This document shows, in pieces, positions 23,111-42,501 of a stretch of DNA of 64,000 bases. The notes below the pieces were generated by a model. That model did not search any database and was not told where the DNA came from. It worked only from the letters and a program-made list of their open reading frames with translations. Numbering within the stretch: position 1 is the first letter of the stretch; each line of letters starts with the position of its first letter. The DNA is from an uncultured Pseudomonas sp. (GTDB lineage: Bacteria > Pseudomonadota > Gammaproteobacteria > Pseudomonadales > Pseudomonadaceae), in the NCBI RefSeq assembly GCF_946885955.1, contig NZ_CAMPHI010000009.1, positions 62,001 to 126,000 on the forward strand, in the 5' to 3' direction. Both the position numbers and the translations under genes were made by a program.

Positions 23111-25504
23111 CTATTGAGCCAGTAGCGGGTCTTCCGGGTTGATGGCTTGAAGCGTTCTGAGGAGTAGGGCGGTTTTGTCCTTATCGCCGGTCTGTGCGGC
23201 ATAAACCAATAACGCCTGACGTATCGCTCTGTTGGCTGGGTCTCGCTCAAGCCCGATTTCGAGCAACCTTTCTGCCTTGGCCTTCTCCCCGCTTTCATGC
23301 AGCCCTATGGCATAGGCGTAGAGGTAATCGCTATTGTCAGGAGCCTGCTTATGGGCTTTAGCCAAGTGACCCAAGGCCTTGCCGCGTCGCCCCTGACGAA
23401 GACTGGCCATGGCCAGAGCATAGTGCAGGGGCGCGTCCTCGGCACGGTGTTCATTGAGCTTTTTTGCCGAAGCGTTGTTAGCCGCAGGCTCAAGGTGCAT
23501 ATTTTCAGCCGACGAACTCTGCTTTTCCGCATAGTGTTTCCTGGCTTCGGTTGTCTCTACCGGATTGTTTAGCGCTTGGTTAAGTCCGTCCTCAAGCAGC
23601 CTGATCCCTGCTCGGGCGTCACCTTGCGACTCAAGCCACTGGGCGAGCAGGATTCTGGCGGGCTGGTAGCGTCGGTCACGTTTCAAGGCTTCTCGTAGCG
23701 CGGGCTCCACATCCTTTGTCCTACCGTCCAGTTGGTAGAGCATGGCCAGATTCACATTTGCCTCGGGGCGCTCGCGGAGGCTGTGTTGTACCTGCTCATA
23801 CTCACGAATGGCCTGTTCGAAACCAGCAGGAGCCGCACGGCCCGTCTGGGCTAGCTGCGCTATTTGCCACGCTGTCGCGATACGCACCGCGCGTACGGGG
23901 TCCCGTAACAAGGGGCTGAGCGCCTGCATCAGCAGTCGTTCAGGGGCCAAGGCAGCCAGGCTGCTTACTGCCACCTCGCGCACTTGCGGCTCATTGTCCC
24001 CCAGCGCCTGAAGGATGGCGTGCAACGTGCGTTGTGAAGGGTAGCGATATAGCTCTGCAAGCAAGGTCGCCCTACGAATGGCGGGCAGGGCTTCGTGCTG
24101 TAATTGCTCCAGTACGGCCACCAATGCGCCTTCCCTCCCATGCCTGGCGGCGAATAAAGCCGAGGCATAGCCGTGATCCCTGGGCTGAGGGTTACTGAAC
24201 AGCTGTTTGAACCGCATTTGCAGGCGAGCCGATGGCATATCCGCATGGCAACCAAGGCAAGCGTCGCTGTACCCCAATGCCATGGCCTGAGCCGGATTCG
24301 GCACACTGAAACTATGATCGTGGCGCAGGTCCTTGACCATAAAGTGGCGAGCCGGCATATGGCAGCTGATGCATTGAGCAGCTGCAGTTTCCTGCCGATG
24401 CCGATGATGTTCCGGCGAGTCGTAGTTCTTGGGTATCAGGCCGGCGGAGTCGATGTCCGTGCGGACTGCCTGGCCCGATGAGTTGTGGCATTGCGTGCAC
24501 AGGGCATTGCCCGTGGCGCGTAACCCGGCGGAGTGAGGGTCGTGGCAGTCCGAGCAACGCACACCGGCGGCATACATACGGCTCTGTATGAAGGAGCCAT
24601 ACTCAAAGACTTCGTCTTTGACCTTGCCATCAATTTCATTGAGGACCGGGCTAAGGGGGCTGGGTAGGTAGTCATCCATCATACGATTGGCATGCTGGTA
24701 GCCATCGGTGAGTGCGGCCCTGCGGCTGTGGCAGCGACCGCAAACTTCGGTCTCTCTTCTTGCACTGTCGTCCACGCCTGCGGATGAAAAGCCATAGCCA
24801 GCCTCACCGGCTGGGCGCTTAACCCATTCCAGATGATCGGCGGCGGGGCCGTGGCAACTTTGGCAGCCCACCCCGAGAGCCTGCCAGGTACTGGCATATT
24901 GGTCGGTAATCGGATCGTAGTTGCGCTTGAAGCCCGTGGTATGGCACTCGATGCACATAAAATTTGCGTTCTGATTCGGTCCCGTCCAATGCAAGGCGTC
25001 GTCATGCTCGATCTGCTGGTTTGGATAGAGTTCGAACCATTGGTTTTTCTGGGTATCCCAAGCCACGTCGAACGCTTGTAGCCGCCCGCCGGGCAATGCC
25101 AGCAGGTACTGCTGCAGTGGCTCGACACCAAAGGTGTAGGCGACAGGGTAGTCAGCCGGTTTGCCATCGGCACCTGTGGTGCTTACCCAGAAGTCAGCGC
25201 CCTTGCGCAGAAAGTGGGTGCGCCCTCGCGATCCGGAGAAAGTCCGGGCATTGAAGTTGCCCAGCACTGACTGCTCGCTTGCCTCCTGCATTGCCAGGTG
25301 GTGGTGGGAGCCCCGCCAGTGCTGATATTGCGTTTGGTGACAGGTCTGGCAGCTGTCTTCGGCTACCCAGTGGTCGACGGTTGGTGGATATGTTGCAGAC
25401 TGCGAGGCTGTGGTGGTCCAAATTGCTGATCCAGCCGATAGCAGTAAAAACAACAAGCCATACGCTGCGATGCGATGGCTCAAACTGAGACGGCTACCGA
25501 GCAA
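23111..25504 (-). CDS. Octaheme c-type cytochrome with HEAT/TPR repeats
   Basis: A protein of about 797 residues. An N-terminal hydrophobic segment (AAYGLLFLLLSAGSAIW) acts as signal or anchor. Eight CxxCH heme sites follow between residues about 52 and 420: CQTCH, CIECH, CQSCH, CGRCH, CSDCH, CTQCH, CISCH, CLGCH. The C-terminal half is alpha-helical repeats, first HEAT-like (ALGDNEPQVREVAVSSLAAL) and then TPR-like (YALAMASLRQGRRGKALGHL). It should be a periplasmic or membrane-bound electron-transfer or redox enzyme; the substrate is unknown. The start is weak (TTG at 25504). It is 41 bases downstream of a sulfatase gene on the same strand, so the two probably form an operon. Confidence 0.82.
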   Translation of the reverse strand: MLGSRLSLSHRIAAYGLLFLLLSAGSAIWTTTASQSATYPPTVDHWVAEDSCQTCHQTQYQHWRGSHHHLAMQEASEQSVLGNFNARTFSGSRGRTHFLRKGADFWVSTTGADGKPADYPVAYTFGVEPLQQYLLALPGGRLQAFDVAWDTQKNQWFELYPNQQIEHDDALHWTGPNQNANFMCIECHTTGFKRNYDPITDQYASTWQALGVGCQSCHGPAADHLEWVKRPAGEAGYGFSSAGVDDSARRETEVCGRCHSRRAALTDGYQHANRMMDDYLPSPLSPVLNEIDGKVKDEVFEYGSFIQSRMYAAGVRCSDCHDPHSAGLRATGNALCTQCHNSSGQAVRTDIDSAGLIPKNYDSPEHHRHRQETAAAQCISCHMPARHFMVKDLRHDHSFSVPNPAQAMALGYSDACLGCHADMPSARLQMRFKQLFSNPQPRDHGYASALFAARHGREGALVAVLEQLQHEALPAIRRATLLAELYRYPSQRTLHAILQALGDNEPQVREVAVSSLAALAPERLLMQALSPLLRDPVRAVRIATAWQIAQLAQTGRAAPAGFEQAIREYEQVQHSLRERPEANVNLAMLYQLDGRTKDVEPALREALKRDRRYQPARILLAQWLESQGDARAGIRLLEDGLNQALNNPVETTEARKHYAEKQSSSAENMHLEPAANNASAKKLNEHRAEDAPLHYALAMASLRQGRRGKALGHLAKAHKQAPDNSDYLYAYAIGLHESGEKAKAERLLEIGLERDPANRAIRQALLVYAAQTGDKDKTALLLRTLQAINPEDPLLAQ

Positions 25505-25545
25505 GGCGGCGCGACTCGTGCAATAGCTCGGTGGCGATATGCTTA

Positions 25546-27441
25546 TCAGCCACCGGCAGGCCCTTCCACACAGAGTTCTGCCTGCATATCCGAGAGGTCG
25601 TAGCCTTCCTGTTGGGGCAGTAGAAATTTATTGACGATCACGGGCTTCGCCAGGTGCTGGTTCAGGAGTGGGCTCTGTCCATCTGCGCTATTGCCTATCC
25701 AGGTGGGGTTTTTCAGCGGTGTGGCCGATCGAGGGCGGGTCAGTACGGTTGGGCTATCCAGCACCACTTTCCCGTTCCAATACAGTAGAAGCCTTGACGA
25801 TGCCGGGCCGGGGAAAGGGTGGGTTCTCGCAGGCTCAATCTGAGTAGAAACCACCAACTTGTTGCATGTTTGCTTGAGTGGGTCGATGGGCGTGCTGAAC
25901 TGCTCTTCGTTGCCTATCACGACCCTTAGGCGCTGGTCAGGCAGCCAGTCGATCCTCCACACCCCCTGCTGCTCAAGCAGTGTCTGCTGTACGGGATGCG
26001 CAGCTGGGTGCTGGAGGGACAATCCAAGGCTGTAGCCACCCAGTACCGGGGCTCTCTGGAAATCAAGGCCGCTCAATTGCCCGGCGTAAGCGGCTGTGCT
26101 GGGCTTCCAGGTAAACGGCGGTGTACGTACCTGTCGCTCAAAAGCGGTGATGAGTACGTCTGCGTCTGCGGCTTCGGGAAAGGCGTGCTCTGTTCGGGGC
26201 TCTGCCGATGGCGTGGCAATTGCCCCTTTGGCCAGCCCTTTTGTGTAAGTCCCGAACAGGTCTCGGTAGAAAAACAATGCATGTTCGAGTTGCTGTCCAC
26301 CGTAGGTCATATTTCCTAAACCTCCATCGGCCATCCAGTAGAAGGCGGATGGCGCGTCTTGCGTTTGTCCATTCATCAGCGGACGCAGGTCTCGCCCCAT
26401 GATTCCAGCCGGTGGAGTCCCTCCAGCCAAAGCAATCAAAGTGGGGAAAATGTCGGTGATATGTGAGGGTGCCGTGACTTCTCTATTTTCGTAATGATGC
26501 GGCCAGCGCAGTAGCATCGGGCTTCTCACGCCGCCATCAAGGTAGTTAGTTTTCTTACCTAAAAGAGGGAAGTTGTTGTCCCGCGCAAGATTGGGCCCAC
26601 CGTTGTCACTGGCGAAGATCACAATTGTGTTTTCGCTCAGCCCTTTGCGCTCAAGGCTTTCCAGCAAACGCTCTACGTTGAAGTCAATGTGCTTGAGGAT
26701 GGATTGGAATTGTCCATCGGCAGTATTCGGGAATTGATCGGCAAACCTGGGGGAGGGCTGATAGGGAGTGTGAGGAGCAAACAACCATAAATTGATAAAC
26801 CAGGGCTGATTCCCCTCTGACATCAGTTCGATGGCTTTCTCGGTCAGGATATCGTCCAGATAGCCCCTGAATTGTTGTGGTTGTCCACCGTTCTCTTGTA
26901 GCCAGGGGTCAAGGTATGTCGGCGCACTACGAATGATCTGGCCTTCTGCGCCGGGGCCTCGTAGTACGAAGTGGTTGAGCATGCCCAGCCAGTAGTCGAA
27001 ACCCTGAGCGCCAGGATTTATTTCAGGGTATTCCAAAGCTTCGCCCACATGCCACTTACCGATATGGGCGGTTCGGTAGCCCAGCGCTTTCAGGCTTTTC
27101 GGCAGTGTTCTCAGATCGCTAGAGAGCCCAAGGCCGTTGGTTTGAAAACCGACACTCACAGGGTGCTGGCCGGTCAGCAAGGCCGCTCGGCTGGGAGAAC
27201 AGGTGCTGTCGGTAAAGTGCAGACGAAATCGCACAGATTGACGGCTCAGCTCATCCAGCGTCGGTGTCGGGGCCGTACCGTCGCCCCAGCTGGCGATATC
27301 GTTGTTGCCAAGATCATCGGTCAAAATCAGCAGGATATTCGGTCTGGCTTGTTGATCCGGGTCATTGCCTGAACAACCCGAGGTCAGCAGAATGACGAGC
27401 AGCGCCAAGCCGCAAAATATGGTTCTGAGAGAAGCCGACAC
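25546..27441 (-). CDS. Sulfatase (alkaline phosphatase superfamily), predicted lipoprotein
   Basis: A type I sulfatase of about 631 residues. It has a lipoprotein signal (SLRTIFCGLALLVILLTSGC, lipobox Cys at 23), metal-binding Asp pair in ILLILTDDLG, the formylglycine motif CSPSRAALLTG with Cys81, HIGKWHVG and the metal site FASDNGGPN. It would hydrolyse sulfate esters at the cell surface after conversion of Cys to formylglycine; no maturase gene is in the window. I prefer GTG 27441, which has SD AGGGA seven bases upstream; ATGs at 27474 and 27483 are alternatives that would overlap the divergent gene. Confidence 0.88.
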   Translation of the reverse strand: MSASLRTIFCGLALLVILLTSGCSGNDPDQQARPNILLILTDDLGNNDIASWGDGTAPTPTLDELSRQSVRFRLHFTDSTCSPSRAALLTGQHPVSVGFQTNGLGLSSDLRTLPKSLKALGYRTAHIGKWHVGEALEYPEINPGAQGFDYWLGMLNHFVLRGPGAEGQIIRSAPTYLDPWLQENGGQPQQFRGYLDDILTEKAIELMSEGNQPWFINLWLFAPHTPYQPSPRFADQFPNTADGQFQSILKHIDFNVERLLESLERKGLSENTIVIFASDNGGPNLARDNNFPLLGKKTNYLDGGVRSPMLLRWPHHYENREVTAPSHITDIFPTLIALAGGTPPAGIMGRDLRPLMNGQTQDAPSAFYWMADGGLGNMTYGGQQLEHALFFYRDLFGTYTKGLAKGAIATPSAEPRTEHAFPEAADADVLITAFERQVRTPPFTWKPSTAAYAGQLSGLDFQRAPVLGGYSLGLSLQHPAAHPVQQTLLEQQGVWRIDWLPDQRLRVVIGNEEQFSTPIDPLKQTCNKLVVSTQIEPARTHPFPGPASSRLLLYWNGKVVLDSPTVLTRPRSATPLKNPTWIGNSADGQSPLLNQHLAKPVIVNKFLLPQQEGYDLSDMQAELCVEGPAGG

Positions 27442-27458
27442 AAAAGGATCCCTGATTA

Positions 27459-28262
27459 GTGAGTAACGTATCATTTCCGACATTGATCGGTGATCAAGCC
27501 ACCATGCCAACTGCCTCGGGCCTGTTGATCAATTATGCGGCGTTGCGGGGCGCTGTAGAACGGTTGGCTCCTCTCTATCAGGATAACCAGCCATTTCCGC
27601 ACATTGTAATTGATGACTTCCTGCCCCCGTCCACGCTGCAGAAGCTTTTGCAGCAGTACCCTTATGACCAAGGGCTGCCTATCTGGAACGATGCAACGCA
27701 CAAGGACAAGAGCAGCGGCGAATATGTGCAGAAAGACAAACGCAATATCCGTGACTGCCTGCAGATGCCCGAGGCCTACAGGCAGTTGGTCTGGGAGTTG
27801 AATTCGCATTATTTTCTCGACTTCCTTAGCCGGATGACCGGTATCGATCAGCTGATTCCCGACCCCAATCTACGCGGGGCTGGAATTCATCAGATTAGCC
27901 GAGGCGGATTCCTCAAGGTCCATGCCGACTTCGCCACCCATCGCGACTTTGCTCTGGATCGCCGTCTCAATTTCCTTTTGTATCTAAATCAGGAATGGCC
28001 GGAAGAATATGGCGGCCATCTGGAGCTTTGGGACAAGGACATGCAAGGCCCACCCAAGCGCGTGCTACCGATTCTCAACCGTTGCGTCGTGTTCAGCACG
28101 ACTTCGAACTCCTACCATGGGCACCCTCAGCCAGTGACTTGCCCGGAAGGGGTCTATCGCAAATCTCTGGCACTCTACTACTACTCCAATGGCCGTCCAG
28201 CAGGCGAGGCTGAACCGGGGTTCGCTACGCTTTGGCAGGAGCTCCCCGAAGCCTACCGGTGA
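27459..28262 (+). CDS. 2OG-Fe(II) oxygenase (prolyl 4-hydroxylase-like)
   Basis: A 267-residue cupin-fold dioxygenase. It opens with the family pattern PFPHIVIDDFLPP. The iron ligands are His155 and Asp157 (FLKVHADFATH) and His220 or 222 (SNSYHGHPQP), with Arg234 (GVYRKSLALYYYS) placed to bind 2-oxoglutarate. Members in polysaccharide clusters hydroxylate proteins or sugars, so the substrate is open. GTG 27459 is preferred because AAGGA lies ten bases upstream; ATG 27504 is the alternative and has no visible SD. Its 3' end overlaps the convergent acyltransferase by 38 bases. Confidence 0.82.
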   Translation: MSNVSFPTLIGDQATMPTASGLLINYAALRGAVERLAPLYQDNQPFPHIVIDDFLPPSTLQKLLQQYPYDQGLPIWNDATHKDKSSGEYVQKDKRNIRDCLQMPEAYRQLVWELNSHYFLDFLSRMTGIDQLIPDPNLRGAGIHQISRGGFLKVHADFATHRDFALDRRLNFLLYLNQEWPEEYGGHLELWDKDMQGPPKRVLPILNRCVVFSTTSNSYHGHPQPVTCPEGVYRKSLALYYYSNGRPAGEAEPGFATLWQELPEAYR

Positions 28263-29391
28263 GTACCGGCAAATGGGATTTCAGTTTAAGGAAGGGGCTT
28301 TCGATAAAGCGGTAACACAGGACCGCCCCCAACCATGACAACAGGAAGCCACCGACAACAGCGGTCAGCATCCTGATATCCAACAATGTGCCGGTATCGC
28401 CGATAGCCACCTTGACGGGATAGAGCAGATAGAACTGAACCGGTACATGCACCAAATATAGCGAGTAGGAAATAGTGCCGAAGTGACTGGCCAGCGGGTT
28501 AATAAATACACGCAAACCCAAGGTCAGCGGCCCCAGGCTACATAGCAGCAAGCCAGCCCAGATCAGGGCCTCCAAGTCATGGTAGAAGGGCATTGCCAGC
28601 AGGGCCGCGTTCTGCCCCGTCAGGCCATACCACTGTAAAAGCCACGTCAGCGCGCCAAGCAGCAGCATGGAGATCAAGCCAACCGCTTTAGGTGCGTTAG
28701 TCATTTTTGAATAGCCGCGGCTTAGATAAAACCAGCTAGCCAATCCGCCGAGCAAAAAGGCCAAGCCTCGGCCAAATAACGATGATTTACTTCCTGGTGG
28801 CAGCCCCAGCCACTGCGGTTGCAGCATGTGAATGCAGTGCAAGATAAGCCAGGCTACAACGCCTGCAATCACCAGCCAACGACCTCGGGGACAGTGCAGC
28901 GCCAACATCAACCAAGGCAGCAGCAGATAGAATTGCACTTCGGTACTGAGCGACCACCATGGCACGCTGAAGGGAAAAATCTCAAAACCAACTGGGACAA
29001 ATAAGAGCGCTTGCAACGCGCTGGTGGAGTTCCCGGTGCTCAGCCAGGCCACCAGAATGGCCGCATAATAAAGCGGAATAATACGTAGCAGGCGAGCGCT
29101 GTAAAACTGACGAATATTGACGTGCGCGCCATCTCGGATCGCCCGAATAAATGGCTGCGCCAGGAGGAATCCACTCAGTACAAAGAACAGCGTTACTCCG
29201 GTATTACCTGCTCCAAAAAGTCGAAGCCACAACGGCGAGTCCGCAGGTAAGCCTCCGGTGCCATCGCCGCGAAGAATGCCAAAGTAGTGGAAAGCAATAA
29301 CCAGCAGGATGGCCCAGCCACGCAGCGACTCCAACTGAGGGATATAGCGAGTTGGATTGCGCAACCCTGCTGGTGTAACTGAGTCACCCAT
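28225..29391 (-). CDS. Acyltransferase 3 family (OafA-like) membrane protein
   Basis: A 388-residue polytopic protein with about ten hydrophobic segments. It carries the family signature RYIPQLESLRGWAILLVIAFHYF near the N-terminus (His in AFHYF) and NTGVTLFFVLSGFLLAQPFI. OafA-type enzymes transfer acetyl or other acyl groups to surface sugars. It is the last gene of a six-gene minus-strand operon, and its ATG shares one base with the stop of the methyltransferase (TGATG). It lacks an SGNH tail. The base composition is less GC-rich than in the CPA locus. Confidence 0.88.
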   Translation of the reverse strand: MGDSVTPAGLRNPTRYIPQLESLRGWAILLVIAFHYFGILRGDGTGGLPADSPLWLRLFGAGNTGVTLFFVLSGFLLAQPFIRAIRDGAHVNIRQFYSARLLRIIPLYYAAILVAWLSTGNSTSALQALLFVPVGFEIFPFSVPWWSLSTEVQFYLLLPWLMLALHCPRGRWLVIAGVVAWLILHCIHMLQPQWLGLPPGSKSSLFGRGLAFLLGGLASWFYLSRGYSKMTNAPKAVGLISMLLLGALTWLLQWYGLTGQNAALLAMPFYHDLEALIWAGLLLCSLGPLTLGLRVFINPLASHFGTISYSLYLVHVPVQFYLLYPVKVAIGDTGTLLDIRMLTAVVGGFLLSWLGAVLCYRFIESPFLKLKSHLPVLTGRLRGAPAKA

Positions 29392-30149
29392 CAGGCGGCG
29401 GGCTTGGCCGGAGCGGCTTGGTTAAGGCGCTTGAGTTTGCGGTTGTTCTCCAGATGCTTGCTGGCATGCACATAAAATGCGCGCATCCGAGCGCATGAGT
29501 CGTCTGTCTGCCCTTCAAACAGCAGCTTGAGCAGCTCGGGGTCATTGCTGCGATCACCGCCCGGTTTACGCAACACACCAAGACCAAAGCCGTGATTGAA
29601 GGTGAAGCTCTCGTGCTGACCGCGAATTTCGTCCCAGAACTTCCAGGCTCCAAAATCCTGCAGGCGCGCCTGCACGTCGTGAAACAGGATAATGCCGCCC
29701 GGCTTTATCTTGGGATACCAGTTGGCGAAGTCCTCGCTCACCGCTTCGTAGGTGTGAAAACCGTCAATATGTAACAGGTCAATGCTCTCCTCATTGAAAT
29801 GCCGCAGGGCATCCTGAAAGTACATGCGCATCAAGTAGGAAAAACCATGGTAATTCTGACGGTTATGGTTATTCACTGCGTTAAAGACCGATTCGTCATA
29901 TTTGTCGGTGTGTTCGTCACCCTCGAAGGTGTCGATCGCATAGCACAGACCATCGATCTCATTTTCCTTCATCGATTGGCAGAAGGTGAAATACGACAGC
30001 CCCTTGTGCGTGCCCAGTTCTACTAGCATCTTCGGGCGCAGGGCCGCGACCAGATCATAACCAAAGGGTAGATGATCGACCCAAGTGCTGAACACCATAT
30101 GCGAGGGTTCGAAATGGCGAATCGACGGTGGCATATAGACGAGGCTCAT
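29391..30149 (-). CDS. SAM-dependent methyltransferase (Methyltransf_24-like)
   Basis: A 252-residue class I methyltransferase. The SAM motif I is KMLVELGTHKGLSYFTF; acidic motif II is YAIDTFEGDEHTD; later LLHIDGFHTYEAVSEDF and GGIILFHDVQ are typical of the sugar O-methyltransferase/cephalosporin-hydroxylase-like group. The C-terminal 40 residues are charged and helical. It is translationally coupled on both sides, to the acyltransferases at 30146 and 28225. The likely substrate is a sugar of the glycan built by this operon. Confidence 0.82.
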   Translation of the reverse strand: MSLVYMPPSIRHFEPSHMVFSTWVDHLPFGYDLVAALRPKMLVELGTHKGLSYFTFCQSMKENEIDGLCYAIDTFEGDEHTDKYDESVFNAVNNHNRQNYHGFSYLMRMYFQDALRHFNEESIDLLHIDGFHTYEAVSEDFANWYPKIKPGGIILFHDVQARLQDFGAWKFWDEIRGQHESFTFNHGFGLGVLRKPGGDRSNDPELLKLLFEGQTDDSCARMRAFYVHASKHLENNRKLKRLNQAAPAKPAA

Positions 30150-31243
30150 GCTTTATATCCTTGCAGGGGTTGTGCTGGAATCAGCTTGTTTTTAAGGGAT
30201 AGCGAGGGCTTCTCGATGGTCCAGTATAAGAGCTGGGCCGTAACCAGAGACAGCGCAATAGCTAGGAGGGTCGCTAACTCGGGCGCAGCAATATTACCTC
30301 GTGTCAAAACCAGATAAATAACCGGCACATGCGTGAGATATAGAGAAAACGATATGGTACCAAAATATCGAGTTATTCGATTATTAATCAAATTGCCATC
30401 AGGAGCACGCCGCATCAGCATGACCCACATAATGCCGCCCCAGATCATAGCCTCTGGTAGAACATACCAGGGTGACTCCCATATATAACGCTCCGGGCTG
30501 ATTCTTGCCGGTGGTACAAGCACAAGTATCAAGCACACCAGCAGCACCAACAAAAACACATTGGCTCGCACCTCTGAGATGACCACTTGGCCTTTCATAT
30601 GGGCAAATGCTATTAACGCACCGACTAAAAAGGCTGGCAGCTGACCGAACACGGACAAAATCATCCTATACTTAAATTCAAATCCCTCTATCCCACCAGG
30701 ACCAAGTACCTTAAGCACGATAAGCACGTAGAGGACCACTAGGGACAGCAGCATGCATATCCTCAGCACCCTACCGGGAATGCACCAGACCAAATAACTC
30801 AGCACTGGCATCAGTATATAAAACTGAATTTCAGTACCGAGACTCCACCAGACGATGCTGAAGTAACCTACATCATAGGCACTAGCTGTGAACGTCAAGA
30901 CCGGCAATAACTGCTCGAACTGCTGGGTAATGATAAGTCCTGCACAGGCAACGAAGTAATACGTAGGCAAGATGCGGATAGCACGCTGCGCCATATATAC
31001 TCTGAACGAAGGTAGCTGCCCAATGGACAACCTCTCAATAAACGGACGCGTAACCAAAAAACCGCTGAGTAGAAAAAACAGCGTCACGCCAGTATTGCCG
31101 GCGTACAACAGTGCCAGGATAAATACATCACCCTCCATCACCTTTTTCCCAGAAAGTATTATCCAGGCGTGATAGAACAGCACAAGTAGGATGGCGAGGC
31201 CACGCAAGCCATCCAGGCTATTAATGCGCCCGGCTGGATTCAT
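30146..31243 (-). CDS. Acyltransferase 3 family (OafA-like) membrane protein
   Basis: A 365-residue acyltransferase 3 with about ten membrane helices. Signature segments are RINSLDGLRGLAILLVLFYHAW and NTGVTLFFLLSGFLVTRPFI, and LYLTHVPVIYLVL near the C-terminus. It is clearly AT-richer than the flanking genome, which suggests recent acquisition. Four-base ATGA overlaps link it to the GT2 gene upstream (31240-31243) and the methyltransferase downstream (30146-30149). It is paralogous in family to the gene at 28225 but not a close copy. Confidence 0.88.
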   Translation of the reverse strand: MNPAGRINSLDGLRGLAILLVLFYHAWIILSGKKVMEGDVFILALLYAGNTGVTLFFLLSGFLVTRPFIERLSIGQLPSFRVYMAQRAIRILPTYYFVACAGLIITQQFEQLLPVLTFTASAYDVGYFSIVWWSLGTEIQFYILMPVLSYLVWCIPGRVLRICMLLSLVVLYVLIVLKVLGPGGIEGFEFKYRMILSVFGQLPAFLVGALIAFAHMKGQVVISEVRANVFLLVLLVCLILVLVPPARISPERYIWESPWYVLPEAMIWGGIMWVMLMRRAPDGNLINNRITRYFGTISFSLYLTHVPVIYLVLTRGNIAAPELATLLAIALSLVTAQLLYWTIEKPSLSLKNKLIPAQPLQGYKA

Positions 31244-33905: not shown

Positions 33906-34036
33906 GTAAAGCCTCTTGTTGTCAGCGGCGGAGCCATTTGTCGGAAAGGACGTGGGCAAGACTTGCAGGTATCTTGCTGAAAAAATACCGCATTGTGTTT
34001 AAATGAGCGCCCTATTTCAATCAGGCCAACATCTAG

Positions 34037-34792
34037 ATGAATTACTGGGAAATTCTTTGGTACGGGGTTTATAGCGAGCTGCGCACGGAGATTGCCAGGC
34101 GCTTTCTCGGCTTCCTCTGGTGGATCATCGAACCGATCATGTATATGGCGGTCTTCTATGTCGTATTCGGCATGGCCCTGCGCCAGGGCGGTGCCGATTA
34201 TGTGCCATTTCTGCTCAGCGGCATGATCGCCTGGAAGTGGTTCGATGGCTCGGTGCGGCAGGCCAGCGGGTCGATCCCAATGAATGCCGGCCTGGTGCAG
34301 CAAATCTACGTACCAAAGTTTCTATTCGGCCTGATTCAGATTTTCAGCAACACCTTCAAGTTTCTGATCGTCCTATTCCTGCTGCTGGTATTTCTCCTGC
34401 TGACCGGCAAAGCGCCTTCGGTCGAGTGGCTCGGTCTGGCGCCCGTGATACTGACGCATCTGCTGCTGATCATCGCGGTTGGCCTGTTGCTTGCCGCCGT
34501 GATTCCCTTCGCCCAGGATCTGAAACTGGTGGTCGACAACCTGCTGATGCTGATGATGTTCATGTCCGGAATCTTCTTCAGCGCTGACCAGGTTCCGGAG
34601 TCCATGCGCGCAGCCTTCGAGTTCAATCCCATGGTGCTGCTGATCTCCGCCTATCGCGAGGTGCTGTTGCATAACCAGTGGCCACTGTGGGGGGCGCTCG
34701 GTTACTGCGTGATGCTCGCCCTGCCAATACTGGGCGCGGCACTGCTGATTCTGCAGCGCAACGAGCGCCGCTATCCGAAACTCCTGTACTGA
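34037..34792 (+). CDS. ABC-2 type polysaccharide export permease (second system)
   Basis: A 251-residue ABC-2 permease with six predicted helices. The N-terminus has the amphipathic segment and RRFLGFLWWIIEPIMYMAVFYVVFG typical of Wzm/KpsM-type exporters. It pairs with the ATPase gene 8 bases downstream. It is distinct from the CPA Wzm at 47958: the two share only family features. It would export the glycan assembled by the flanking operons across the inner membrane. Confidence 0.88.
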   Translation: MNYWEILWYGVYSELRTEIARRFLGFLWWIIEPIMYMAVFYVVFGMALRQGGADYVPFLLSGMIAWKWFDGSVRQASGSIPMNAGLVQQIYVPKFLFGLIQIFSNTFKFLIVLFLLLVFLLLTGKAPSVEWLGLAPVILTHLLLIIAVGLLLAAVIPFAQDLKLVVDNLLMLMMFMSGIFFSADQVPESMRAAFEFNPMVLLISAYREVLLHNQWPLWGALGYCVMLALPILGAALLILQRNERRYPKLLY

Positions 34793-34800: not shown

Positions 34801-35559
34801 ATGAGCGAGCGGCAACTGATCCTCCAAGCACACAATGTCGGACTGTCCTACCGACAGCGTACCGGCGTGCTCAAATACCAGAAGTTCTGGGCGCTGGAAG
34901 ATGTCAGTTTCACCCTCAATGCGGGCGAAACACTCGGCATCATTGGCGCCAATGGTGCCGGCAAGAGCACCCTACTACGCATGATTGCCGGTATCACCGA
35001 GCCAGATCGCGGTCGGCTCTGGCGTCAACCTGGCATGACCGCCAGCCTGCTGGCCTTGAATGTCGGTTTCAAACCGGAGTTGTCCGGGCGCGAGAACGTA
35101 TACATCGGCGGCCTCTTGCTCGGTCTCAGTCTCAAACGAGTGCGTGCACTGATCGACGATATTCACAGTTTCAGCGAACTGGGCGATTTCTTCGAGCGCC
35201 CAGTGGGCACCTACTCGACCGGCATGCGCGCGAGGCTAGGCTTTGCCGTCGCCATCTACGCCGACCCGGACATCCTGCTGATCGACGAAGTACTCGGGGT
35301 CGGCGATGAGAGCTTCAAGGTGAAATCGCACAACGCCATGCGCCAGAAGATTTGCGACAAGAAGACCGTCGTGCTGGTTTCGCACAGCATGGAAGCGATC
35401 CAGTCGCTGTGCGATCGGGTGGTCTGGCTTCATGACGGGCGCAGCGTTGCTTGCGGCCCTGCCGACGAGGTCATCAGCGGGTATCTGGAAACCATCCGCA
35501 TAGCCGTGAAATTGGAGCAAGCGAAGGAGCGCGAGGCTAAACGCCAAGCATTTGCCTAG
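34801..35559 (+). CDS. ABC polysaccharide exporter ATP-binding protein (short Wzt/KpsT type)
   Basis: A 252-residue ATPase with Walker A GIIGANGAGKSTLLRMIAG, signature YSTGMRARLGFA, Walker B ILLIDEVLGVGDE and H-loop VLVSHSM. It lacks the C-terminal carbohydrate-binding domain present in the CPA Wzt (46675), so substrate recognition should follow the capsule/KpsT or reducing-end-linked mode instead. Its TAG stop is part of the CTAG at the left edge of a MITE-like element. Confidence 0.89.
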   Translation: MSERQLILQAHNVGLSYRQRTGVLKYQKFWALEDVSFTLNAGETLGIIGANGAGKSTLLRMIAGITEPDRGRLWRQPGMTASLLALNVGFKPELSGRENVYIGGLLLGLSLKRVRALIDDIHSFSELGDFFERPVGTYSTGMRARLGFAVAIYADPDILLIDEVLGVGDESFKVKSHNAMRQKICDKKTVVLVSHSMEAIQSLCDRVVWLHDGRSVACGPADEVISGYLETIRIAVKLEQAKEREAKRQAFA

Positions 35560-35718
35560 CAGACCGTTGAAAAACGTAGGCGAGGCAGCCAGTGCAAAAC
35601 AAAAACAGGCGAAAAAGCGGAGTTACGTGTTGTAAATGAGCATTTTGACAGGGCTCGCACCCGAGCCTGCTTTTTACGCAGCAATGGCAACGCCGGTAGT
35701 TTTTCAACAGCCTGCTAG
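35556..35718 (+). repeat. MITE-like element, copy 3
   Basis: Best-preserved copy, 163 bp including CTAG at both ends (35556-35559 and 35715-35718). Terminal inverted repeats CTAGCAGACCGTTGAAAAAC and, from the other end, CTAGCAGGCTGTTGAAAAAC match at 18 of 20. It is non-coding and lies between the ABC ATPase and the sulfotransferase-glycosyltransferase gene. A flanking CTAG is what an IS5-type transposase, which duplicates YTAR targets, would leave. Confidence 0.8.
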
Positions 35719-35783: not shown

Positions 35784-38700
35784 ATGAGCGTTGAGTGTAC
35801 GAAGATCATCGTCGTTCTCGGTATGCACCGCAGCGGCACAAGCGCCTTGACCAGGGGGTTACAGGCTCTAGGTGTGGAGCTGGGCGGCAATCTGATGCCT
35901 GCCTTCGAAGGTAATAACAGCAAAGGCTTCTGGGAGGACCTGGAGATCGTTGCCATCAACGATGCCTTGCTGGAGCAATGCGGGCAGAGTTGGCACAGTC
36001 TTGGCGATCTTAGCCAGGGCAATTGGGCTGCGCTGCTGGCCAGCCCTCATGGACAAAGGGCCGTTTATTATCTTTCCAAGCAAATCGAACGCTATCGTCT
36101 TTTTGCCTTCAAGGATCCGCGAATGGCGCGCCTGCTGCCATTCTGGAAACTGGTGTTCCAGCGCCTGGGTGTGACGCCGATTTTTCTTATTGCCAGCCGC
36201 AACCCGATCAGCGTTGCCTTGTCGCTTGAAAAGCGCGATGGCTTTCCTGCTGAGAAAAGTCACCTGCTGTGGCTCGAACATTGTCTACCCAGCTTGCTGG
36301 AAACCCAGGGCTATACGCGCCTGGTCATAAGTTATGACCGATTGTTGGCCAGCCCCCGTGAGCAGCTGTTGCGCATTGCCCGCCTGAGCGGACTCAATGC
36401 ACCGACGGATGAAGATCTGGTCGAGTATGTCGAGAGCTTTCTCGATGAGCAGTTGCGCCATTCACATTTCTCCGCGAAGGACATCCAGTGTGCTCCCGGC
36501 CTGCTCGCCGAAACGCGGTTGTTGTTCGAGTTGCTAGAGCAACTGGCAACCGATGCGCAGGACTTGAACGATCGCAATACCAGTGAGGCATTGAGTAATC
36601 TGACGCTGCAGTTGCAGCGCTATGAGCCACTGCGCGCCTTGTTGGCTACGCAGGAGCATAGCGTTGCCAACCAGCAAAGGCAGATCAGTCTGCTGGAGCA
36701 GCAGCTGCAGCAAACCGTTATCGCCCACGCAAACGAGCTTGCGCAACAAGCAGTGCAGGTGCAGTTGTTCGTACAACAGAAAAAGTATCTGGAGCATCAG
36801 GTCGCAAGTCTGCAGCAAGACCTGTTGAATGCTCACGCCAGCATTGCAGAAATACGTGGCTCGTCATCCTGGCGGCTGACCCAGCCGTTGCGCGCCGCCG
36901 GCAGCTTCGCCAAGCGCCTGGTCGGCAGGTCTCGGAACGCGCTCAGGTCCATCGCTCGCACAGTCTATTTTCGCTTGCCGCAAAGGCTCCGCGCACCTCT
37001 GCTTAGTTGGGTATTTAGCCGCCTGGGGTTTCTGTTCCGGAACTCGATCCACTATGAGAACTGGCAACGGCAGCAGCAGGTGAGCCGCGCCGAGGGTATT
37101 CAGGGGTTATATGGGCTGACCCATAGCGCCGATGCGGAATCGAAATCCGCTGGTCGCTATGCTCTGGAGCAATCCTGCGCTAGTCGCTATTGCTACCTGC
37201 CGCCGCGGCGTTCGGCCAGCGTCGAGCAGGCACTATCCGGATTTGCTTGCCGTCCCTTGATTTCGATCATCACGCCGGTATATGGCGTTGCCCCACGTTA
37301 TCTGGAAAAGCTTATCAAGTCCGTGGAGCTGCAGTGGTACACCAATTGGGAGCTGATTCTGGTTGAGGATGCCGGGCCTAATGAAGATACCCGACGCTTT
37401 ATGCGAGAGCTCGATGATCCGCGAATCAAGGTCAGATTCCTTGAGCAGAACGGAGGTATATCCCATGCAAGCAACATTGCGCTAAGCCTGGCGCAAGGTG
37501 AGTATGTCGCTTTTCTTGACCATGACGATGAGCTGACACTCGACGCATTGTACGAAGTTGTAAAAGTCATAAATGAACATGACCCCGACCTCATTTATAG
37601 CGATGAGGACAAGATTGATGCGACGGGAAATTTCAGTGACCCCTTCTTCAAACCGGGATGGTCGCCTGATGCACTGATGAGCATCATGTATACCTGCCAC
37701 CTGTGTTGCATTCGGTCACGTCTGGTCGAAGATGTGGGTGGCTTACGTCTTGGTTATGAGGGGGCTCAGGACTATGATCTTATCTTGCGGGTCACCGAGC
37801 AGACCCAACGCGTCGCGCATATTCCCAAGGTACTTTATCACTGGCGCATACTGCCCTCCTCAATTGCCTCAAGTATCGATGCCAAGCCCTATGCCAGTGA
37901 CGCAGTTCGTCGCCTCAAGGAAGATGCGTTACAACGTCGTATGCTCTCTGGTTGTGTTGAGTCCGTGGCCCAAATGCCTGGGCAGTTTCGCATCAACTAC
38001 CGTCCTGTCGACACTCCGCTGGTGTCGATCATTATTCCAAGTCGTGACAACTACTCGATCTTGCGGCAATGCATCGACTCCATTTTGGAGAAGACTCGCT
38101 ACGAAAACTACGAAATCATTCTTATCGATAACCAGAGTGTCGACGAGGACGCTCTGTTGTATTACCGCAGCCTGGAACTGCATCCGCAGATACAGCTGCA
38201 ACACTACCCTCACCCCTTTAACTATTCAGCTATTAACAACCTGGCTAGCCGTTATGCTACGGGTGAATTTCTGCTCTTCCTCAATGATGATACACAGGTC
38301 ATAGAGGGCGATTGGCTGGAGCGACTGCTCGGTTTTGCACAGTTGGAACATGTAGGCGCAGTGGGGGCCAAATTGCTTTTTCCAGGTTCTGAGCGTATTC
38401 AACATTGCGGCGTACTGAATTTGGCCGATGGCCCGGGCCATGCGTTCTACAATGCGCGTCATGACATACCGCTGTATTTCGGGCGCAATGTTCTTGACTG
38501 GAACTGGCTGGCGGTAACCGGTGCCTGCCTGATGGTCGCTCGCCATAAATTCGAGTCTATTGGTGGTTTTGATGAGGCACTACCCATTGCCTATAACGAT
38601 GTCGATCTGTGCTTGGGGCTGCATCGGGCCGGTTGGCACAATGTGGTGTGTTCTGCTGTAACGCTTGTGCATCACGAGTCAGTTTCCCGTGGAGTTGACC

Positions 38701-38843
38701 ACGAAGATACCGTCAAGCTCAAGCGGCTTGGCCGCGAACGTCGCAAGCTGTTTTATAAGCATCCTGACTATTTCATGCGTGACCCCTATCACAATAATAA
38801 TCTTCATCAGAATAGTGTCGACTTTCTGATGTTGAACTACTGA
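35784..38843 (+). CDS. Sulfotransferase-GT2-GT2 fusion protein
   Basis: A 1019-residue multidomain protein. Residues 1-250 form a sulfotransferase with the PAPS 5' loop VVLGMHRSGTSALTRGL and 3' site LIASRNPISVALSLEKR, preceded by FAFKDPRMARLLPF. Residues about 280-360 are Gln/Leu-rich and coiled-coil-like, ending in the linker GSSSWRLTQPLR common in large bacterial glycosyltransferases. A GT2 domain begins near 490 (LISIITPVYG, DXD as FLDHDDEL near 577). A second begins near 745 (LVSIIIPSRDN, FLNDDTQV near 831). One chain could therefore add sugars and sulfate. It heads a four-gene run towards cysC. Confidence 0.88.
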   Translation: MSVECTKIIVVLGMHRSGTSALTRGLQALGVELGGNLMPAFEGNNSKGFWEDLEIVAINDALLEQCGQSWHSLGDLSQGNWAALLASPHGQRAVYYLSKQIERYRLFAFKDPRMARLLPFWKLVFQRLGVTPIFLIASRNPISVALSLEKRDGFPAEKSHLLWLEHCLPSLLETQGYTRLVISYDRLLASPREQLLRIARLSGLNAPTDEDLVEYVESFLDEQLRHSHFSAKDIQCAPGLLAETRLLFELLEQLATDAQDLNDRNTSEALSNLTLQLQRYEPLRALLATQEHSVANQQRQISLLEQQLQQTVIAHANELAQQAVQVQLFVQQKKYLEHQVASLQQDLLNAHASIAEIRGSSSWRLTQPLRAAGSFAKRLVGRSRNALRSIARTVYFRLPQRLRAPLLSWVFSRLGFLFRNSIHYENWQRQQQVSRAEGIQGLYGLTHSADAESKSAGRYALEQSCASRYCYLPPRRSASVEQALSGFACRPLISIITPVYGVAPRYLEKLIKSVELQWYTNWELILVEDAGPNEDTRRFMRELDDPRIKVRFLEQNGGISHASNIALSLAQGEYVAFLDHDDELTLDALYEVVKVINEHDPDLIYSDEDKIDATGNFSDPFFKPGWSPDALMSIMYTCHLCCIRSRLVEDVGGLRLGYEGAQDYDLILRVTEQTQRVAHIPKVLYHWRILPSSIASSIDAKPYASDAVRRLKEDALQRRMLSGCVESVAQMPGQFRINYRPVDTPLVSIIIPSRDNYSILRQCIDSILEKTRYENYEIILIDNQSVDEDALLYYRSLELHPQIQLQHYPHPFNYSAINNLASRYATGEFLLFLNDDTQVIEGDWLERLLGFAQLEHVGAVGAKLLFPGSERIQHCGVLNLADGPGHAFYNARHDIPLYFGRNVLDWNWLAVTGACLMVARHKFESIGGFDEALPIAYNDVDLCLGLHRAGWHNVVCSAVTLVHHESVSRGVDHEDTVKLKRLGRERRKLFYKHPDYFMRDPYHNNNLHQNSVDFLMLNY

Positions 38844-38860
38844 CAAGAGAATCAGGTGCT

Positions 38861-40834
38861 ATGGAACGCTATCAGCAGCTGCTGGAAGAGTTTGACAAGT
38901 TACTGCCTGCTGTCCGGGCTGTTTCGTTTGATGTATTCGACACCCTGCTTGTCCGTGTTTTGCATGAACCGGAAAATCTATTTGATCTGATGGGTCATCA
39001 GTTGGCTGATCGCGGCTTTGCCGAGCAGCGGAAAGTCGCCCAGATACATGGCTTTAAACAAATGGCTCGGGAGGGGCGTAAAGAGCTGACGCTGGCTGAT
39101 ATTTATGACAATTTGAGCCACGCACAGCATGACTCCGCCGTATTAGCTGAGCTGGAGCAGAAGCTTGAGCATGCAGTGATACGACTCAACCCTGAAGTCG
39201 TTGCGCTGTTCGACGAAGCACGGAGTCAAGGCAAGGTCGTTGTTTTGACCTCGGATATGTACCTGCCACAGAAATTCTTCGCGCAATTGGCTGAGCGCCT
39301 CAATTTACGGGCCGATCACCTTTTAGTCTCCAGCGCATGCAACTGTACCAAGCGCGATAAGGGTGAGTTGTTCGACCTGTTAAAGCAGCGGCTCGGACTT
39401 GCTGGCGAGGATATCCTGCATATAGGTGATAACCCGCTTGGCGATGTGCAGCGAGCCAAGGAAAAAGGGCTGCGCACTCTGCACTATCGTCCTCCTGCCT
39501 CTATCGCTCAAGGGCTCGTCGAATCTTTGCCGGCTTCTTCTGCAAGCACCTACCTCTGTGCCGGTCTTGCCCGTTATGCCTGCTACCAAGATTCCAGAAG
39601 CTCCTGGTATCGCCTGGGTTGGCAGTATGGCGGCCCGTTGTTGCATGGGTTTCTCGACTGGATTCAGGACGAGGTTCGCGATGAAGGTATTGATCGTCTG
39701 CTCTTTATCTCCCGCGATGGCTTCCTGCTGCATCAACTTCATCAGCAGTATTCGGCCGGAGGTGTGGAGGCTCAGTACATGCGAGGGTCGAGAGTGGCAT
39801 TCACTATGGCCGCACTCTCCGAGCAGAATTTCCTCGAGTCGGTGACATTTTTTCTTTCCGGTGCCGACAACATCACGCTGGAAGATCTTTTTACCCGCAT
39901 CGGCGTTGAATTGCCCGATGCTGGCGTGCTGGAGCCCCTAAATTTAAGCGCAACTACACGCATTACTCCGCGCACTCATAAGTCAGTCGGGCAGTTCCTA
40001 GTGGCCATGCGTCATCGAATTCTACAAGTAGCCCGTGAAACACGACGTGGTCTACACCGCCATCTGCTGGAGTTGGGGTTGACCGATGGTATGCGGGTGG
40101 CATTTGTCGATGTTGGTTGGAGCGGTACCACGCAGAAAGCTTTTGAACGCGCCCTGGAGGGAATGTTTGAACTCGATGTGCAGGGCTACTACCTGGGTCT
40201 TTCAGAGCCGGCCAAGAGCCTCTCGCAGAAAACCGGTCTGCGCCTGAAAACCATGAGCGAGGCGCTCCAGCTGGACGACAGAAGCCGTGCTCTGTTGTAC
40301 GACAATCGAGCCGTAGCCGAGCTATTCTTTTCTGCGCCCTACGGCACAACCATCGGGTACCGCCAAGATGCCGAGGGTCATTTATCCTTTGTCGAGGATG
40401 GCGAACGCGGCATCGATTACGACATAGGCTTGCTCGTTGAGTCGATCAACCAGGGCATTAGTGATTATGTCGCGGACGCAGAACAGCTGCGGCTAACACT
40501 GGCTTTGCCAATCGAACGATATCTGCCGCTGCAGCACCTCTTGCAGTTGCTGGGTCGACCCTCGACTGAACAAGCAGTTCTTATAGGCCGAATCTATAAC
40601 TGGGATGCCTGGGCGAGTAGCGAAGGCTACCGTATCTATTTCGCTGGCAGGCCCGAAGCATCGACAGATTATTACAAACCGGATTTATGGCCTGCAGGGT
40701 GGCAGATTGTGCGTTCATTGCCTCAGGGAGCATTGCCGTGCATGGAGCGCTTGAGCGACCCGCAACATAATCATTCCGTGCCGGTTGTCGAGGCTGCATC
40801 AGCTCGTCGCGCTGTTGAGGTGTCCGCTCAATGA
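38861..40834 (+). CDS. HAD-like hydrolase with large uncharacterised C-terminal domain
   Basis: A 657-residue protein. Residues 15-230 form a HAD phosphatase fold: nucleophile motif FDVFDTLL, motif II VVLTSDMYLP, a Lys in TKRDKGELF and motif IV ILHIGDNPLGDV. The remaining 400 residues have recurrent motifs of polysaccharide-locus HAD proteins (LLFISRDGFLLHQLH, RVAFVDVGWSGTTQKAFE) but no function I can name. It may act on a sugar phosphate or prime the glycan. It follows the fusion gene after 17 bases and overlaps the next GT2 gene by 4 (ATGA). Confidence 0.75.
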   Translation: MERYQQLLEEFDKLLPAVRAVSFDVFDTLLVRVLHEPENLFDLMGHQLADRGFAEQRKVAQIHGFKQMAREGRKELTLADIYDNLSHAQHDSAVLAELEQKLEHAVIRLNPEVVALFDEARSQGKVVVLTSDMYLPQKFFAQLAERLNLRADHLLVSSACNCTKRDKGELFDLLKQRLGLAGEDILHIGDNPLGDVQRAKEKGLRTLHYRPPASIAQGLVESLPASSASTYLCAGLARYACYQDSRSSWYRLGWQYGGPLLHGFLDWIQDEVRDEGIDRLLFISRDGFLLHQLHQQYSAGGVEAQYMRGSRVAFTMAALSEQNFLESVTFFLSGADNITLEDLFTRIGVELPDAGVLEPLNLSATTRITPRTHKSVGQFLVAMRHRILQVARETRRGLHRHLLELGLTDGMRVAFVDVGWSGTTQKAFERALEGMFELDVQGYYLGLSEPAKSLSQKTGLRLKTMSEALQLDDRSRALLYDNRAVAELFFSAPYGTTIGYRQDAEGHLSFVEDGERGIDYDIGLLVESINQGISDYVADAEQLRLTLALPIERYLPLQHLLQLLGRPSTEQAVLIGRIYNWDAWASSEGYRIYFAGRPEASTDYYKPDLWPAGWQIVRSLPQGALPCMERLSDPQHNHSVPVVEAASARRAVEVSAQ

Positions 40835-41799
40835 GCCAATACGAAGAATGTCTTGAGTCTTCTGGAGCTGTCCGGAAAGAGTCTCCGAAGGTTGCGATCC
40901 TGCTGTCCACACACAATGGTGCCCGTTATTTGGCACAGCAGCTCGACTCAATCATCAACCAGTCATACCCACACTGGCAGCTTGCCGTGTCCGACGATGG
41001 TTCGTGCGACGGCACGCTGGACATCCTGCTTGAGTATCAACGCAGGCTTGGCCGCGATCGCCTGACGATCAAGCCCGGTCCCTGTTTGGGGTTCCATGCC
41101 AACTTTTTGTCTTTGGTGCTAGATGAGGCGATTGCTGCTGACGCCTATGCATATTGTGACCAGGATGATCTCTGGCATCCCGACAGATTAGAACGGGGCC
41201 TTGAGTGGCTGGCGCGGGCGCGGTCCGGGCTACCAGCCCTATATTGCGGCCGCACGCATTTGGTTGATGAGCGAGGCAAGCATTTGGGACAGTCTCCCTT
41301 ATTCGATCGCCCCCCAACCTTTACCAACTCCTTGGTACAGAGCCTGGCCGGCGGAAACACCATGCTTTTCAACCATGCCGCCCGCGACCTGTTGATTGAT
41401 GCAGGCCCGCTACCGATCATCTCCCATGACTGGTGGACATACATGCTGGTCAGTGGTGCTGGCGGGCAGGTTTACTACGATAAAACGCCATCAATTGACT
41501 ACCGCCAACACGGGGGCAATCTGATCGGTGCCAATTCCAACCTGGGCGATCGCCTTTACCGGCTCCGCCGGATGTTCGCTGGACACTTCAAGCAGTGGAA
41601 CGACATCAACATTGAGTCGTTGCGGCGCTGCCAGCACTTGCTGACCGAACAGCATCGCGAAGTGCTGCTAACGTTCGCTAAGGCGCGGAAAAACTCTCTC
41701 CTGTCGCGATGCCGCGGAGTCATGAGTTCTGGAGTATATCGCCAGACGCTGTTGGGTAACCTGGGCTTGGTAATAGCCATCCTGCTCGGCAAAATTTAA
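40831..41799 (+). CDS. Glycosyltransferase family 2 (rhamnosyltransferase-like)
   Basis: A 322-residue GT2 enzyme. The N-terminal region VAILLSTHNGARYLAQQLDS and SDDGSCDGTLDIL with a DXD-type AYCDQDDLWHPDRL resemble the rhamnosyltransferase/WcaA subgroup. It starts with a four-base overlap on the HAD gene and ends 36 bases before cysC. The sugar is unknown. Confidence 0.86.
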   Translation: MSQYEECLESSGAVRKESPKVAILLSTHNGARYLAQQLDSIINQSYPHWQLAVSDDGSCDGTLDILLEYQRRLGRDRLTIKPGPCLGFHANFLSLVLDEAIAADAYAYCDQDDLWHPDRLERGLEWLARARSGLPALYCGRTHLVDERGKHLGQSPLFDRPPTFTNSLVQSLAGGNTMLFNHAARDLLIDAGPLPIISHDWWTYMLVSGAGGQVYYDKTPSIDYRQHGGNLIGANSNLGDRLYRLRRMFAGHFKQWNDINIESLRRCQHLLTEQHREVLLTFAKARKNSLLSRCRGVMSSGVYRQTLLGNLGLVIAILLGKI

Positions 41800-41835
41800 A
41801 GAATGGGTACAGCCATGACGCAAAGGATCACCTAA

Positions 41836-42501
41836 ATGTCCCGCCTCCCTGAAGCGACAAACCTAGTCTGGCAGGCTGCCAGTGTGACTCCGGAAGCCCG
41901 GGCGCAATTGCTCCGACAACGCCCGGTGACCCTATGGATGACGGGCCTGAGTGGTGCGGGTAAATCGACCTTGGCGTTTGCCCTGGAAAAGCGTCTGATT
42001 GAACTCGGGCATGCCTGCTTCGTGCTCGATGGTGACAATGTTCGTCACGGCCTGAACGCCGACCTGGGTTTTTCTCCTGAGGCCCGTGCAGAAAATATCC
42101 GGCGTATCGCCGAAGTTGCCAAGTTGATGAATACTGCCGGACTGATCGTTATCACGTCGTTTATCTCGCCCTATGGCGAGGATCGACGCATGGCACGCGC
42201 GCTGATCGGCGCAGAGGGATTCCGCGAGATTCATATCAGTACAACCCTGAAGAGCTGCGAGCAGCGCGATCCGAAGGGACTGTATCAGAAGGCCAGGGCG
42301 GGGCTGATCAGCGAATTTACTGGCATTTCGGCCCCCTATGAAGCCCCCGATCAACCCAGCTTGAGTCTTGATACCTCTGAGGTGCAGATGGAAGAGTGTC
42401 TGGAGCGTTTGCTGGCGGTGCTCTGGCCCTTCATTGACGAGTCTGCGAGTCACCTCAATACGAGTTCAGCAGTTCTAGAGGGGCAGGCGAGTAAAAGCTG
42501 A
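41836..42501 (+). CDS. cysC: Adenylylsulfate (APS) kinase
   Basis: A 221-residue APS kinase that phosphorylates adenylylsulfate to PAPS, the sulfate donor of sulfotransferases. The P-loop is MTGLSGAGKST (residues about 34-44), followed by VLDGDNVRHGLNADLGFS, the ISPYGEDRRMARAL region and LISEFTGISAPYEAP, all diagnostic. It is a stand-alone CysC, not the CysNC fusion usual in Pseudomonas sulfate assimilation, and no ATP sulfurylase gene is nearby. Its place at the end of an operon with two sulfotransferases indicates a dedicated PAPS supply. Confidence 0.94.
   Translation: MSRLPEATNLVWQAASVTPEARAQLLRQRPVTLWMTGLSGAGKSTLAFALEKRLIELGHACFVLDGDNVRHGLNADLGFSPEARAENIRRIAEVAKLMNTAGLIVITSFISPYGEDRRMARALIGAEGFREIHISTTLKSCEQRDPKGLYQKARAGLISEFTGISAPYEAPDQPSLSLDTSEVQMEECLERLLAVLWPFIDESASHLNTSSAVLEGQASKS

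Follow-up and report, generated by a model that had tools for sequence, protein, structure and literature searches.

The proven bacterial sulfated polysaccharides that we met in our comparison come from marine or cyanobacterial strains. Vibrio sp. KMM 8419 makes a proven sulfated polysaccharide from a capsule locus that shares cysC, a sulfotransferase (ST) and ABC-export genes with the locus described here (PMC11641403). Cobetia marina KMM 1449 has a sulfated capsule locus with PAPS genes, a sulfotransferase and ABC export in common with the island (PMC11766843), and the synechan (xss) cluster of Synechocystis 6803 has two sulfotransferases and many glycosyltransferases (PMC8205485). For Pseudomonas, a review refers to a sulfated polysaccharide from the marine strain WAK-1 (PMC5023242), and in the open-licence literature we found no sulfated-glycan locus described in the genus; the remark in the first-pass annotation of this DNA that such polymers are rarely described in Pseudomonas is therefore fair. 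The possibility that PA1385-PA1393 of P. aeruginosa PAO1 is a similar cluster had no literature support and was dropped.

Here we describe a 21-kb block beside a CPA-type locus in a 64-kb window, by which we mean the whole stretch of DNA analysed. The block is probably an acquired, foreign-looking glycan island, and judged by sequence its sulfation machinery looks intact.

Layout, composition and edges of the island

The island lies between pntAB (17640-20534) and the CPA-type locus (43031-50751). The latter contains GTs, a Wzt with Wzt_C, a Wzm, and gmd- and rmd-like genes; its labels wbpX, wbpY, wbpZ and rmd are putative, assigned by gene order, and the gmd-like gene scores 406.9 bits against TIGR01472, just below the cut-off of 415. 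In 1-kb windows the island has a GC content of 0.555 and its flanks one of 0.648 (Mann-Whitney p 1.3e-10), and GC3 is 0.54-0.77 in island genes versus 0.75-0.87 in flanking genes.

Two divergent operons originate in a 131-bp gap (33906-34036). The left operon, on the minus strand, runs from the free ST (33162-33905) through two paralogous GT2s (32223-33146 and 31240-32226; both PF00535, 46% identity), a membrane acyltransferase (30146-31243; PF01757, Acyl_transf_3) and a methyltransferase (29391-30149; PF13578, Methyltransf_24) to a second membrane acyltransferase (28225-29391; PF01757, Acyl_transf_3). The right operon, on the plus strand, holds Wzm, Wzt, an ST-GT2-GT2 fusion, a HAD-domain protein of 657 aa (38861-40834; PF00702, with residues 211-657 free of Pfam matches), a GT2 (40831-41799; PF00535) and an APS kinase. 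Beyond the left operon, an oppositely directed 2OG-Fe(II) oxygenase (27459-28262, plus; PF13640, 68.2 bits) is followed by a lipoprotein sulfatase (25546-27441) and a multihaem cytochrome c (23111-25504), both on the minus strand; the cytochrome has HEAT and TPR repeats by Pfam and eight CXXCH by motif count. Genes in the block overlap by four bases at four junctions and by one base at a fifth.

Every gene named in the first-pass annotation is thus present (APS kinase, STs, GT2s, ABC-2 exporter, acyltransferases, methyltransferase, HAD-like protein and sulfatase), its three further GT2s being those at 31240, 32223 and 40831, and the lower GC content and tight overlaps that it reported are confirmed. 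It had put the sulfatase at one edge; the sulfatase is indeed found at 25546, but the outermost gene is the cytochrome, whose membership of the system is uncertain. Its description of the block as self-contained does not stand: a Pfam scan of the 16 block ORFs recognised no ATP sulfurylase, sugar-nucleotide enzyme, initiating sugar-phosphate transferase or outer-membrane exporter.

A direct repeat brackets the block; in a self-comparison its two copies lie 21.2 kb apart. By blastn, the left copy (21424-21745, plus) is 76% identical over 322 bp to the right copy (42642-42960, plus), with 96% identity across an 81-bp core. Most of an intact DUF1127 gene (42779-42985) falls within the right copy, and the DUF1127-like start in the left copy is cut short by a stop about 20 codons in, as judged by eye. 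A 53-bp piece continuing the left repeat (21733-21785, plus) matches an internal stretch of the wbpZ-like gene (43305-43357) at 94% identity, and a transposase remnant of 190 aa (22356-22928, minus; PF05598 and PF01609) sits just inside the island edge. A resemblance to the 3' end of pntB, seen by eye at 21786-21816, had no blastn match and was dropped. The signs of a genomic island are therefore present in deviant composition, repeats and mobile-element traces, and the earlier suggestion that the block moved as a unit agrees with the GC content, the direct repeat and the transposase remnant alike; loss of the unit through recombination between the repeats would also be possible. No tRNA gene was found within the 64-kb window, so there is no tRNA site for the island. 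The oxygenase, the direct repeat and the transposase remnant do not figure in the first-pass annotation.

The family used for comparison is taken as pseudomonad-like from its CPA-type genes and from PntB, whose best piece reaches 74-80% in all 11 of 11 genomes. A wbpZ-like match occurs in 122 of 284 genomes, at 67% at best. Ten CPA-type loci were compared, all from more distant genomes; in these no pntB or DUF1127 match adjoins wbpZ, and among these ten loci, none of them from a close relative, no empty site was found.

Probable linkage of the sulfatase to the sulfotransferase

The gene at 25546-27441 is a predicted formylglycine (S1) sulfatase, scoring 168.4 bits against PF00884 (cut-off 25) and carrying a lipobox by eye; its ORF extends to 27510, and the start was placed at 27441 after the closest homologues of 631 aa. 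It keeps the formylglycine motif CSPSRAALLTG, the metal ligands LTDD and SDNGG, and GKWH. Its relatives are less strict. A C-x-P-x-R-x4-T-G pattern missed 56 of the 120 relatives listed, and in an alignment of 121 rows the Cys is kept in all 119 that cover it, with the Pro or the Thr-Gly altered.

We compared contigs carrying relatives of the free ST, the fusion and the sulfatase, using the best 120 of 495, 1087 and 2757 hits, respectively. Each hit was represented by its longest contig, contigs were matched by size rather than by name, and 200 offsets, none larger than 100 bases, gave the chance level. Among these listed hits, ST and sulfatase share 14 identical contig sizes, against a chance mean of 0.44 and maximum of 3; ST and fusion share 8 (chance 0.27), fusion and sulfatase 5 (chance 0.30), and three sizes are common to all three. 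The matches fall on longer contigs: of the listed ST contigs of 8-60 kb (n=43), 11 match sulfatase and 7 match fusion contigs, and none of those below 8 kb (n=65) matches either. Eleven of the 14 ST-sulfatase pairs lie on contigs of 8-53 kb and three on contigs above 600 kb, for which a shared contig says nothing about proximity. Because the sizes coincide far above chance, sulfatase and ST relatives are probably linked in other bacteria, and these shared contig sizes lend support to the tie between sulfatase and block drawn in the first-pass annotation. Linkage by itself does not make the glycan a substrate of the sulfatase. In 8 of the 14 linked sulfatases Val or Ala replaces the motif Pro, with the Cys kept, which puts their activity in doubt; the island sulfatase has the Pro.

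The glycan operons may have been read rightly while sulfatase and cytochrome form a separate module that scavenges external sulfate esters, for example from algal glycans. The two genes do make up an operon of their own on the far side of the oppositely oriented oxygenase, carrageenan is the substrate of the nearest solved sulfatases (E 2.6e-52), and the altered motif of 8 of the 14 linked relatives points the same way. However, ST and sulfatase relatives occur on contigs of the same size far more often than expected, mostly contigs of modest length, and we regard a separate module as a serious if somewhat unlikely alternative.

Proposed assembly, export and sulfation of the glycan

The Wzm-type ABC-2 permease (34037-34792, plus; PF01061) and the short Wzt-type ATPase of 252 aa (34801-35559, plus; PF00005) form a predicted Wzm/Wzt exporter. 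The island Wzt lacks Wzt_C (PF14524), with hits up to E 5 inspected, whereas the neighbouring CPA-type Wzt has it at 122.8 bits. Because Wzt_C is absent, we take the island Wzt not to be of the chain-terminated exporter type. Its best NCBIfam matches are polymer exporters, all under their cut-offs, and NodI, the Nod-factor exporter ATPase, is also among its matches, under its cut-off. Pfam recognised no KpsE/D, KpsS/C, Wzx/Wzy or chain-length gene among the 16 block ORFs. With no Kps, Wzx/Wzy or initiating-transferase gene recognised among these ORFs, an LPS-type glycan would fit better than a Kps capsule.

The fusion (35784-38843, plus; 1019 aa) was delimited by Pfam, by sequence and fold comparison and by alignment as ST, coiled coil, GT2 and GT2, the two GT2 stretches forming its C-terminal part. 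Its closest solved sequence relative is a chondroitin synthase (K4CP; E 2.8e-19, residues 455-690), and the best fold matches of the whole-protein model (pTM 0.59) are heparosan and chondroitin synthases (E near 1e-21), at low TM-scores of about 0.2-0.35. Like the fusion, the chondroitin polymerase K4CP and the heparosan synthase PmHS2 have tandem GT domains; they differ in that identity in the fold alignment is about 13% and no fused sulfotransferase domain was matched. Relatives of the fusion reach 89% in P. borbori, 58% in Aquipseudomonas, 43-54% in Azotobacter, 43% in P. japonica and 34-36% in Vibrio. By alignment, the ST-GT2-GT2 proteins of P. borbori, Aquipseudomonas, Azotobacter and Vibrio have the same overall architecture; the relatives are annotated as glycosyltransferases only, with no function named.

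The product could instead be a small sulfated oligosaccharide or glycolipid. Such compounds exist, sulfated Nod factor and mycobacterial lipids being examples (PMC8205485), and no recognised Wzy or chain-length gene in the block, a Wzt without Wzt_C and the NodI match would all suit one. Against it, the GT pair of the fusion is nearest to processive glycosaminoglycan synthases and the best NCBIfam rows for Wzt are polymer exporters, under cut-off as they are; we consider a small product improbable.

Turning to sulfation, the APS kinase (41836-42501, plus) appears intact, scoring 215.5 bits against PF01583 (cut-off 21.1) and passing the equivalog-level profile TIGR00455 (234.5 bits, cut-off 138.7). 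The free ST (33162-33905, minus; 247 aa) has an ORF spanning 33162-33959, and its start was put at the ATG at 33905, where most homologues (244-248 aa) begin. It scores 35.2 bits against PF13469 (cut-off 27). Its PSB loop G29-S36 with R32, together with R143 and S151, is invariant in 42 sequences; the PSB loop and the 3'-phosphate Arg/Ser are motifs with known roles in the PAPS fold (PMC11625862). Its predicted model has the PAPS sulfotransferase fold, at low Foldseek TM-scores (normalised to query length, the top ST rows reach 0.42-0.52), and phmmer found no solved ST relative (best E 0.12, unrelated). Profile, binding motifs and fold thus all fit a predicted PAPS-dependent sulfotransferase. 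The N-terminal domain of the fusion scores 18.7 bits against PF13469, under the cut-off of 27, and covers nearly the whole profile; it is 33% identical to the free ST over 226 aa (E 1.6e-22), and some relatives of the fusion carry a precomputed PF13469. Its R16, R139 and S147 are invariant in 55 aligned sequences and the PSB-loop pattern occurs in 111 of the 120 fusion hits listed, so the PAPS-binding motifs are predicted to be intact. PAPS binding on modelling, which the first-pass annotation had raised for both domains, is supported by fold and motifs for the free ST and by sequence for the fusion.

A search for the gene set in other genomes, which the same annotation had suggested for Pseudomonas, returned partial sets of cysC, ST, Wzm and Wzt and no close copy of the island among the loci fetched. 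At E <= 1e-8 the ST matched in 11 of 392 genomes of one pseudomonad-like family: in six the ST adjoins cysC, in four an ST-headed long protein adjoins Wzt, and in one an ST-headed protein adjoins a GT like that at 31240. Locus contents were read from regions around eight of these 11, and from five MAG loci found by a contig scan with the fusion as query. Two loci combine cysC, Wzm, Wzt and ST (L004, L035), one has cysC, a GT2-GT2 protein, an ST-headed protein and Wzt (L036), two have Wzt with an ST-GT2 fusion (L002, L033), and one has Wzm, Wzt and an ST-headed protein (L034); what follows the ST in L034, L035, L036 and L037 is not recognised as GT2. Close relatives of the free ST were found in 0 of 318 genomes at E 1e-20, a zero that says little with the window's clade probably missing, and close relatives of the sulfatase in none of 215 genomes (E 1e-60) and none of 15 (E 1e-30), again with that clade probably missing; having no positive control, all three zeros are uninformative on absence. 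The best free ST match among 40 plasmid records is 32%, none of 725 plasmid records spans 80% of the sulfatase in one place, and viral contigs gave only distant ST relatives, the best segment of any of the 80 kept reaching no more than 39%.

That the ST-like domains are inactive or transfer another group, with the APS kinase merely boosting sulfur assimilation, is very unlikely: our searches met no member of these exact families with demonstrated activity, the fusion domain falls below its Pfam cut-off and the free ST lacks a solved relative by phmmer, but the binding motifs are invariant, the free ST model has the ST fold and cysC adjoins ST genes in other loci.

Proposed pathway and comparison with known systems

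The explanation that we favour, and consider rather probable, is that the locus came by horizontal transfer and specifies a sulfated surface glycan that is made, decorated and exported and can then be desulfated by an envelope sulfatase. Housekeeping ATP sulfurylase, supplied by the cell itself, would make APS, which the island APS kinase would convert to PAPS; the block is not self-contained. The GT2s, including the polymerase-like pair of the fusion, would build the chain in the cytoplasm, with the tethered and free STs sulfating it as it grows; methyl groups would be added in the cytoplasm and acyl groups at the membrane. Wzm and the short Wzt would carry the chain, most likely an O-antigen-type polymer destined for LPS, over the inner membrane, beyond which the lipoprotein sulfatase could remove sulfate again. 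Sequence shows the enzymes, motifs, operons, edges and probable sulfatase-ST linkage; the polymeric nature of the product, its sulfation, its attachment to LPS and the action of the sulfatase on it are what we infer. The making, sulfation, decoration and export proposed in the first-pass annotation are supported in part, by the ST motifs, the free ST fold and the apparently intact APS kinase; the self-containment that it proposed is not. Counting against our explanation are the sub-threshold Pfam score of the fusion ST, the low TM-scores, the altered motifs of most linked sulfatases, the lack of recognised sugar-nucleotide, ATP sulfurylase and initiating genes in the block, and the rarity of close relatives in the genomes searched.

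A further reading, which we offer tentatively and think rather doubtful, is write-and-erase glycan sulfation, in which an ST tethered to a double-headed polymerase writes sulfate onto a surface polysaccharide during synthesis and a dedicated envelope sulfatase edits or recovers it on the finished chain. The Val or Ala that replaces the motif Pro in 8 of the 14 linked sulfatases lowers its odds. Such a system would resemble the way vertebrates make heparan sulfate and modify it with extracellular Sulf enzymes. If this reading were true, the cell might adjust the charge of its surface or keep a reserve of sulfur in its coat.

Should our reading of the locus hold, sulfated polysaccharides exist in pseudomonads in a transferable, LPS-type version, and the linked sulfatase makes post-export editing of sulfation in bacteria directly testable. 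The ST-GT2-GT2 fusion, if true to its reading, would be a one-protein route to sulfated, glycosaminoglycan-like chains. Possible uses include enzyme-made sulfated sugars and the study of surface-charge effects on phages and hosts.

In the open-licence literature we found no paper joining a sulfatase or desulfation with a bacterial sulfotransferase exopolysaccharide gene cluster, and the word 'sulfatase' is absent from the text of the Vibrio sp. KMM 8419 report (PMC11641403). That Vibrio locus of about 80 genes differs from the island in Kps-type export, cysN/cysD and rhamnose genes (PMC11641403), the Cobetia locus of about 70 genes in Kps group III export, cysQ and a sulfate permease (PMC11766843), and the synechan cluster in Wzx/Wzy export and its cyanobacterial host (PMC8205485). 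New in the island, by comparison, are the bracketing repeat, the short Wzt, the polymerase-like ST fusion and the probable linkage to a sulfatase.

A possible intergenic repeat element and the HAD protein

Self-comparison of the window revealed a pair of 160-bp repeats with 77% identity, one copy lying between pntB and the left edge of the island (21164-21321) and the other between the island Wzt gene and the gene for the sulfotransferase-GT2-GT2 fusion (35558-35717), and this pair is perhaps an intergenic repeat element. Within the island, the final 447 residues of the HAD protein (window 39491-40834) matched no Pfam family up to an E value of 5.

The sulfatase and its gene neighbours

Downstream of the sulfatase gene, in the same direction and after a gap of 41 bp, lies a gene (23111-25504) for a multihaem protein that combines eight CXXCH haem motifs with HEAT and TPR repeats. 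On its other side, the sulfatase gene is separated from the acyltransferase gene by a 2OG-Fe(II) oxygenase gene (27459-28262) on the strand opposite to both. Among the sulfatase relatives P0293-P0339, many have an unusual formylglycine motif, with C-S-V-S-R instead of C-S-P-S-R, and several of these lie on a contig equal in length to that of a sulfotransferase.

Comparison with loci in other genomes

In the neighbouring CPA-type locus, gmd and Wzm are only 98 bp apart (48758-48857), whereas the gap is ~1.5 kb in related loci such as L053-L055, L057 and L058; the window thus seems to lack a gene that is present elsewhere at this position. Sulfotransferase and cysC genes are immediately adjacent in six genomes (loci L022-L027). 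Around three of these six pairs, the 20-kb regions contain no match to the island Wzm, Wzt or glycosyltransferases. The six pairs may perhaps represent a sulfation system distinct from that of the island.
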